DNA of 23,626 nucleotides from a virus. Shown piece after piece: positions 733 to 2,102 of this stretch. Below the pieces are notes generated by a model. The model was given only the letters and a program-made list of their open reading frames with translations, had not been told where the DNA came from and searched no databases. Location of the stretch: IMG/VR virus record IMGVR_UViG_3300045135_001265, positions 1-23,626 of that record. One strand, written 5' to 3'. Position 1 is the stretch's first letter. Every line of letters begins with the position of its first letter. Made by a program: the position numbers and the translations under genes.

Positions 733-788
733 CTGTTTCACTCTTTTGAGATCATCAGATCAAACACACATTTGATTACAGTTCTGGG

Positions 789-813
789 AAAAGGGAGCAA
801 CCTAATTGCTCCC
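789..813 (-). terminator. Rho-independent terminator, minus strand
   Basis: GGGAGCAA (793-800) and TTGCTCCC (806-813) form a perfect 8-bp stem with a 5-base loop. Read on the minus strand the hairpin is followed directly by TTTT (792-789). It would end a minus-strand transcript arriving from about 988. It lies upstream of the minus-strand genes rather than after them, so it closes a separate short RNA or acts as an attenuator of their leader. Confidence 0.6.
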
Positions 814-988
814 ACTATCGATATTCGATAAGCCGTACAGATTTCTAATATGTCTCAAAAATTCCTAGCAATCACTACAAAGCTAAGTCCTCAAACCTTG
901 GCTTATCTGTTTCCATGGGGATAGCCTACTTCCTCCAAGACCTCGCCCTTTCACGAGAATGGGATTTTTTGGCAAACCTAGCCTTTCC
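793..988 (-). ncRNA. Candidate structured phage small RNA (or long regulatory leader)
   Basis: About 196 nt on the minus strand lie between a promoter-like sequence (1020-992) and a Rho-independent terminator (813-789), with no convincing reading frame. Several helices can be drawn by eye. GAUAAGCC (907-900) pairs perfectly with GGCUUAUC (834-827) over 8 bp. CUUAGC (887-882) pairs with GCUAGG (869-864), with one G-U pair. UAUCG and CGAUA form a small hairpin near 830-816. CUCG (957-954) with CGAG (945-942), crossed by CCC (963-961) with GGG (948-946), could make a small pseudoknot. The stretch is also visibly more GC-rich than the flanking sequence at 1021-1130. It does not match RNase P, tmRNA, 6S or a riboswitch class that I can identify. 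It could act in trans as a small RNA, or in cis as an attenuated leader of the genes at 704-1. The 5' end is an estimate. Confidence 0.5.
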
Positions 989-991
989 TAT

Positions 992-1020
992 TCATTACAC
1001 GAATAATAAAAACATGTCAA
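992..1020 (-). promoter_or_regulatory. Sigma70-like promoter candidate driving the minus-strand small RNA
   Basis: On the minus strand a perfect -35 box TTGACA lies at 1020-1015. A -10 candidate TAATGA (997-992) follows with a 17-base spacer; TGTAAT (999-994) with a 15-base spacer is the alternative. Transcription would start near 988-984. The -35 is strong and the -10 is weak. The next downstream signal is the terminator at 813-789, which makes a self-contained unit. Confidence 0.45.
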
Positions 1021-2003: not shown

Positions 2004-2037
2004 GGGGCTTGTCTACTAGTTATAACTAGTATATATA
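2004..2037 (+). promoter_or_regulatory. Promoter-like element, copy 1 (GGGGCTT / ACTAGT type)
   Basis: GGGGCTT (2004-2010) overlaps a -35-like TTGTCT (2009-2014). A 17-base spacer begins ACTAGT, and a -10-like TATATA follows at 2032-2037. The same arrangement recurs at 6687-6720 (GGGGCTT, TTTTCA, 17-base spacer beginning ACTAGT, TATATT). Conservation of spacing and of the GGGGCTT and ACTAGT blocks at two operon heads argues for a real phage promoter class. It would drive the 80-aa gene, terL, portal and following genes from about 2044. Confidence 0.55.
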
Positions 2038-2090
2038 TTTTGTTATACTAGTATAAATAACTAGTTATAACTAGTAATGTTATAACTAGT
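2015..2090. repeat. ACTAGT palindrome array between terminase genes
   Basis: Six ACTAGT hexamers lie in 76 bp, at 2015, 2025, 2047, 2060, 2070 and 2085. Two perfect copies of the 16-bp palindrome ACTAGTTATAACTAGT are at 2015-2030 and 2060-2075. Between them is a different palindrome, TTATACTAGTATAA (2043-2056), and a half copy, TTATAACTAGT, ends at 2090. The first palindrome falls exactly in the promoter spacer and the rest cover the start and leader of the transcript. This looks like a cooperative operator, or a terminase or replication-protein binding array. Confidence 0.7.
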
Positions 2091-2102
2091 AGGGAAAACG
2101 GT

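Follow-up and report, generated by a model that had tools for sequence, protein, structure and literature searches.

A structured leader RNA and a hammerhead ribozyme at an exchangeable locus ahead of a phage operon

Introduction

The question raised by this locus is what a marine phage makes from a promoter that is followed by about 210 nt of minus strand without a gene. The window, by which the whole analysed stretch of 23,626 nt is meant, carries a sigma-70-like promoter at this place, including the perfect TTGACA named in the original prediction, and transcription is expected to start near position 985. The region from 1020 to 785 had been taken for a self-contained small-RNA gene closed by a terminator hairpin at 813-789 or, alternatively, for an attenuated leader of the genes at 704-1. 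A functional structured RNA of the minus strand is upheld here by covariation and conservation, whereas a self-contained unit with its own terminator is not. A hammerhead ribozyme (783-731) that had been missed lies directly downstream, and because it adjoins the earlier 3' boundary (785), the element extends to the gene start at 704. Most probably a hammerhead cut between 777 and 776 produces the 3' end of the RNA, with transcription continuing into the genes at 704-1. The minus-strand order is promoter, structured RNA, type III hammerhead, Shine–Dalgarno sequence and ATG at 704:

1020-992 (-): sigma-70-like promoter, with TTGACA (1020-1015), a 17-nt spacer and TAATGA (997-992)
985-777 (-): class A structured RNA, with a length of about 209 nt once cut as predicted (alignments A2/A4, covariance models, pair counts)
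964-941 (-): 5' pseudoknot 964-962/948-946 with hairpin 958-954/945-941 (covariation)
937-916 (-): hairpin H2, 937-931/921-916, with loop AGUAGGCUA (pair counts)
907-827 (-): long-range helix P1, 907-900/834-827 (compensatory changes)
within 907-827 (-): A / GUAC internal loop between P1 and P2
within 907-827 (-): helix P2, 898-893/844-839, and hairpin P3, 885-882/869-866 (column-pair scan, pair counts)
813-793 (-): covarying 3' hairpin H3, upstream of the ribozyme
783-731 (-): type III hammerhead ribozyme (core match, covarying stems, 73.2 bits with a type III covariance model whose training set included this copy)
783-778/736-731 (-): stem III, with A17 at 777 and stem I at 776-771/764-759
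758-752 (-): CUGAUGA, followed by stem II (750-748/743-741) and GAA (739-737)
751 and 740 (-): U10.1 and U11.1, unpaired
777/776 (-): predicted self-cleavage site after A17, placed by the hammerhead register
716-713 (-): Shine–Dalgarno GGAG, 8 nt upstream of the ATG; the ribozyme-to-start spacing is stereotyped
704-501 (-): first gene of the putative processed mRNA, 67 aa
487-1 (-): second gene, 162 aa, running off the end of the contig

The 67-aa first gene has no match in PHROGs. The nearest named relatives of the terminase include Pelagibacter phages (51-53% identity).

A conserved structured RNA

Homologues of the leader (class A) were drawn from IMG/VR contigs, which are fragments, and 13 distinct sequences could be aligned across about 190 nt. 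The structure named by hand coincides with the top-ranked covarying helices of an unbiased column-pair scan. In 518 cells, 99.4% are paired, and 19 of the 41 pairs have changed on both sides; double-change cells number 71 against 21 in shuffles, a value equalled by none of 500 shuffles, and all slid controls are far lower. A divergent member, L190, was found by the covariance model (72.6 bits), and with its addition both-side changes are seen in 22 of 33 pairs. The predicted 8-bp helix P1 is kept by compensatory changes in every homologue: it reads GATAAGCC/GGCTTATC in the window and GAAAGGTC/GACCTTTC elsewhere, and in L190 several of its positions are altered with all pairs retained. The pseudoknot, previously only a possibility, now has a defined place at the 5' end, where C-G/U-A/C-G is exchanged for G-C/A-U/G-C between sequence types; the adjoining hairpin has both-side changes in four of its five pairs, and the pairs of both flip together. 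A hammerhead lies directly 3' of the class A RNA in L190 as well.

Taken alone, the folding energy of the leader is not significant (z = -1.21; 26 of 200 shuffles are as good), and the case for a conserved structured RNA is built on covariation. The suggested covariance-model search was run against Rfam 15 (4227 families) and gave no match for class A, in agreement with the earlier failure to assign it to a known RNA class; nothing was matched when the intergenic DNA was searched against named phages. Covariation and conservation in homologues, on which the original prediction had staked itself beforehand, are both present, and its reading as a functional RNA survives.

Several resemblances were considered and set aside. 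By eye, the 3' part looks RNase P-like (GCUUAUC, GAUUGCUAG) and GGAAGUAGG is a string known from glutamine riboswitches, but neither likeness gained support from Rfam. A pairing of the invariant leader segment UUUUGAGA with UCUCAAAA of ribozyme stem II is seen in the window and is attributed to chance, because it is lost in homologues with another stem II. In the class A RNAs, the last hairpin is followed by a kept tail, CUUGUCCUAG (window 792-782), and the two together look like the 3' half of the type I hammerheads present in these operons; the tail is degraded in the window to TTTTCCCAG; since the 5' half is missing, it is only a possible relic of a type I hammerhead. The contigs of three relatives (L030, L044 and L053) end inside the class A RNA, as is expected for a sequence common to otherwise different phages.

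The 3' hairpin and the hammerhead ribozyme

The hairpin that had been read as a terminator is present and covaries (813-793), but its tail is not conserved: it is no more than TTTT in the window and is CTTGTCC in the homologues, so that the combination of a GC hairpin with a U-tract is not conserved at 813-789, and the terminator scan did not report this site. We read H3 not as a terminator but as the kind of 3' hairpin usually found ahead of these ribozymes.

The ribozyme (783-731) reads ACUGUA/AUCAAA-UGUGUG-UUUGAU-CUGAUGA-U-CUC-AAAA-GAG-U-GAA-ACAGU, the slash marking the predicted cleavage site. All core elements (C3 U4 G5 A6 N7 G8 A9, G12 A13 A14, A15.1-U16.1 and H17) are present and invariant across 41 relatives, the helices follow the type III order, and covariation is seen in stems I and III and in the inner three pairs of stem II. 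In this diverse set of 41, pairing reaches 100% of cells in stem I, where all six pairs show both-side changes, and 97% in stem III, and the inner three pairs of stem II are always formed; double-change cells number 221 against 61 in shuffles. Positions 10.1 and 11.1 lack a standard pair in 35 of the 41, nearly always as U-U, and stem II is thus completed across a mismatch reported to support cleavage (PMC3088659). Strong conservation is also seen in loop I (U-G-N-G-U) and in loop II (NAAA), between which a tertiary contact may form. A strict scanner requiring the core letters and three stems gave no match in 1.7 Mb of shuffled loci.

The best Rfam match is Hammerhead_3 (RF00008, sTRSV-like type III), which agrees with the window ribozyme in stem order, core and register (734-780) and differs in that the window copy scores 13.2 bits, below the curated threshold of 48.5; in the eleven loci scanned with Rfam, no hammerhead reached the gathering score. 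The UGUG-like loop I and short loop II of the window are like those of sTRSV. That the hammerhead is genuine is held to be nearly certain. A17 together with U-U at 10.1/11.1 is not what the usual consensus has, and cleavage may be slow.

Exchange of the leader at one locus

Class A loci with enough sequence have the divergent terS on one side and, on the other, a leftward operon in which nearly all carry homologues of the 162-aa gene; L190 is the exception, its contig having no match to these window proteins. The first ORF behind the class A RNA belongs to at least six unrelated families. Conversely, five relatives (L003, L006, L008, L015 and L028) keep the promoter and carry a different RNA of about 215 nt (class B) behind it:

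L003:332-118 (-): class B leader RNA, also in L006, L008, L015 and L028; covarying and unrelated to class A

The promoter region of L003 is 91% identical to that of the window, the shared stretch stops at window 986, the expected transcription start, and the likeness resumes at the ribozyme. The class B fold, from five sequences, has 57 pairs, nine of them with double changes, and 2 of 275 cells unpaired, as counted on the predicted fold itself; class B has no match in Rfam. Two facts show that the leader does not depend on the gene that follows: at least six unrelated first ORFs stand behind class A, and in L003, L006, L015 and L028 class B fills the slot between the same promoter and ribozyme. 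The two classes are new families of structured RNA that replace each other at a single locus, which suggests that the RNA as such is under selection. In other contigs, hammerheads are preceded by several further types of leader.

Two further observations concern this locus. In L007 and L010, the first 50 nt are class B and the rest is divergent, in the manner of a modular exchange. Between terS and the next gene of the window (2015-2092) lies a cluster of palindromic TTATAACTAGT repeats, possibly a binding or packaging site.

The hairpin-hammerhead module in other phages

Among type III hammerheads, 158 of 189 have a Shine–Dalgarno-led ORF beginning at most 60 nt away, as do 54 of 62 among type I, compared with 32 of 251 random positions, and many hammerheads lie 28-50 nt past the stop codon of the previous gene. 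For the 40 nt upstream of 164 type III copies, the median folding energy is -14.25 kcal/mol versus -4.5 kcal/mol in controls, and the strong upstream hairpin usually abuts stem III. In L130:2016-8607 (+), about 13 hammerheads, mostly type I, each preceding AAAGGAGGAAAAATG or a similar sequence, stand one apiece before nearly every gene of a 7-kb operon. Contigs of 30-65 kb have one to four type III model matches each, often clustered. At the locus itself, the type III ribozyme is absent in 12 of 29 terL loci, and in at least four of these 12 the operon contains a type I hammerhead. No convincing hammerhead, only sub-threshold matches, was found in the first 50 kb of the named terL relatives HTVC027P, HTVC023P and 023Pt_psg01, and the scanner found none in phiV10 and STsAS, which were blastn matches.

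The U-U form is also present ahead of the first gene in the PaP3-like phages Pa223 and DL54. In Pseudomonas phage Pa223 (L222:1115-1171), the start codon annotated for the first gene (1167) falls within stem III, and cleavage could free it for translation; the same phage has a second hammerhead, of type I, at 2471-2546. Several hammerheads per few kb were seen in L216:1859-5724, L209 and L213, metagenome-assembled contigs binned as bacteria that are probably prophage or phage.

Coupling of U10.1-U11.1 to base 17

The U10.1-U11.1 mismatch is rare among described hammerheads and dominant here. In an earlier report it was called a surprising variant that yet supports cleavage, 10.1-11.1 mispairs were rejected unless activity was shown, and hammerheads of phage PaP3 were among those tested (Perreault et al., 2011, PMC3088659). 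Among the present U-U copies, base 17 is A or U in 147 of 149, against C17 in 59 of the 80 copies with a Watson-Crick 10.1-11.1 pair (Fisher p about 4e-34), and within type I the counts for A/U17 are 12 of 12 U-U copies versus 15 of 50 for the rest (p = 8e-6); these p-values overstate independence because the copies are related. The search pattern forced U-U in many type III copies while leaving base 17 free, and the type I copies were selected for neither. Within the literature that could be searched, the coupling of U10.1-U11.1 to A/U17 in both ribozyme types is a new sequence rule.

Discussion

Promoter-like boxes, a conserved fold, a ribozyme core with covarying stems, a fixed order of hairpin, ribozyme, Shine–Dalgarno sequence and ATG, and exchange of the leader are all legible in the DNA; we infer transcription from the promoter, cleavage in cells, protected ends and a leader that works in its own right. 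A host-type promoter (1020-992) would start a leftward transcript whose first about 209 nt fold into a compact RNA closed by the strong hairpin at 813-793, and the type III hammerhead directly downstream would cut between 777 and 776 while transcription runs on into the genes at 704-1. The freed leader is expected to have a hairpin-protected 3' end with a 2',3'-cyclic phosphate, and the mRNA of the 704-1 genes would bear a 5'-hydroxyl and start exactly with the hairpin of stem I, 72 nt ahead of the ATG; both cleavage products might be stabilised. The leader may then act on its own and not on the downstream gene, presumably as an early trans-acting RNA that is directed at the host or counters its defence. 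That the hammerhead matures RNA and mRNA in cells is considered highly likely, and the overall reading, in which the leader is freed by the hammerhead and the downstream mRNA is trimmed, is considered likely; the trans role of the leader is an even bet.

The leader, folding as soon as the transcript begins, might instead act in cis on RNA polymerase, so that later terminators are ignored and nothing but a subsequent trimming of the mRNA is left to the ribozyme. HK022 put RNA, which is likewise structured, promoter-proximal and part of an early phage operon, offers an analogy for such a role, and a leader that begins at the expected transcription start right behind the promoter, goes with the operon and not with any particular gene, and can be replaced by alternative leaders in the same slot would suit it. 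The ribozyme, however, would detach the leader from the mRNA, and put elements differ in fold and are much smaller than a leader of about 200 nt with several helices, which leaves this explanation doubtful. Control of the downstream gene by a riboswitch or attenuator would account for a structured 5' leader with a hairpin ahead of a gene, but no Rfam riboswitch matched even at E up to 5, and a ribozyme separates the leader from the gene; the earlier proposal of an attenuated leader for 704-1 is weakened because the U-tract is missing in homologues and at least six unrelated first genes stand behind the same RNA, and regulation of this kind is quite improbable.

A small-RNA gene ending in an intrinsic terminator at 813-789, next to an unrelated or dead hammerhead-like sequence, would be suggested by the strong hairpin and TTTT of the window; with CTTGTCC in the homologues, a silent terminator scan and covariation of every stem I pair, it is very improbable. 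Release of a circular RNA, as by retrozymes or viroid-like RNAs, is brought to mind by type III hammerheads that are sometimes paired a few hundred nt apart (L006, L007). Retrozymes have a ribozyme on both sides of the RNA; the window has a single one, and the paired copies flank protein genes rather than the RNA, so that such a release is extremely improbable. Liberation of the leader and trimming of the mRNA by the hammerhead is the preferred reading.

In T7, early mRNAs are cut intercistronically by RNase III to give hairpin-ended mRNAs. The present arrangement is a functional analogue in which the cut would be made by an RNA in cis, with no need for a host enzyme. Theta ribozymes of gut phages are likewise small, self-cleaving, phage-borne and RNA-processing, although they have an HDV-like fold and are linked to suppressor tRNAs (PMC10879173). 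Hammerheads of phages and prophages are known, including those of Pseudomonas phage PaP3, which are listed as active variants of the core, and it has been proposed that they process long phage transcripts (Perreault et al., 2011, PMC3088659). The hammerheads of that set have the same catalytic core, are of types I and III, flank genes in several copies and include an active U-U variant; here, in contrast, U-U is the main form and is tied to A/U17, a strong hairpin abuts the ribozyme, which has a stereotyped site before a Shine–Dalgarno-led start, and an exchangeable structured RNA precedes the first ribozyme. No description of the hairpin-hammerhead module was found in the searchable literature, and relative to it the ribozyme-matured, swappable leader RNA and the use per gene look new.

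The role of hammerheads in phages has been open since their description in 2011. It is conceivable, and put forward tentatively, that ribozymes, and not terminators and host nucleases, punctuate the operons of these phages, a hairpin-hammerhead module cutting out every gene as well as the exchangeable early RNA at the head, and that the leaders are unrelated trans-acting RNAs swapped at a single locus in an arms race with the host. The fixed order of hairpin, ribozyme, Shine–Dalgarno sequence and ATG, repeated for nearly every gene in one operon, gives the ribozymes a testable role, namely the production of separate mRNAs with protected ends, and because the same ribozyme form occurs in cultured PaP3-like Pseudomonas phages, this role can be tested now.
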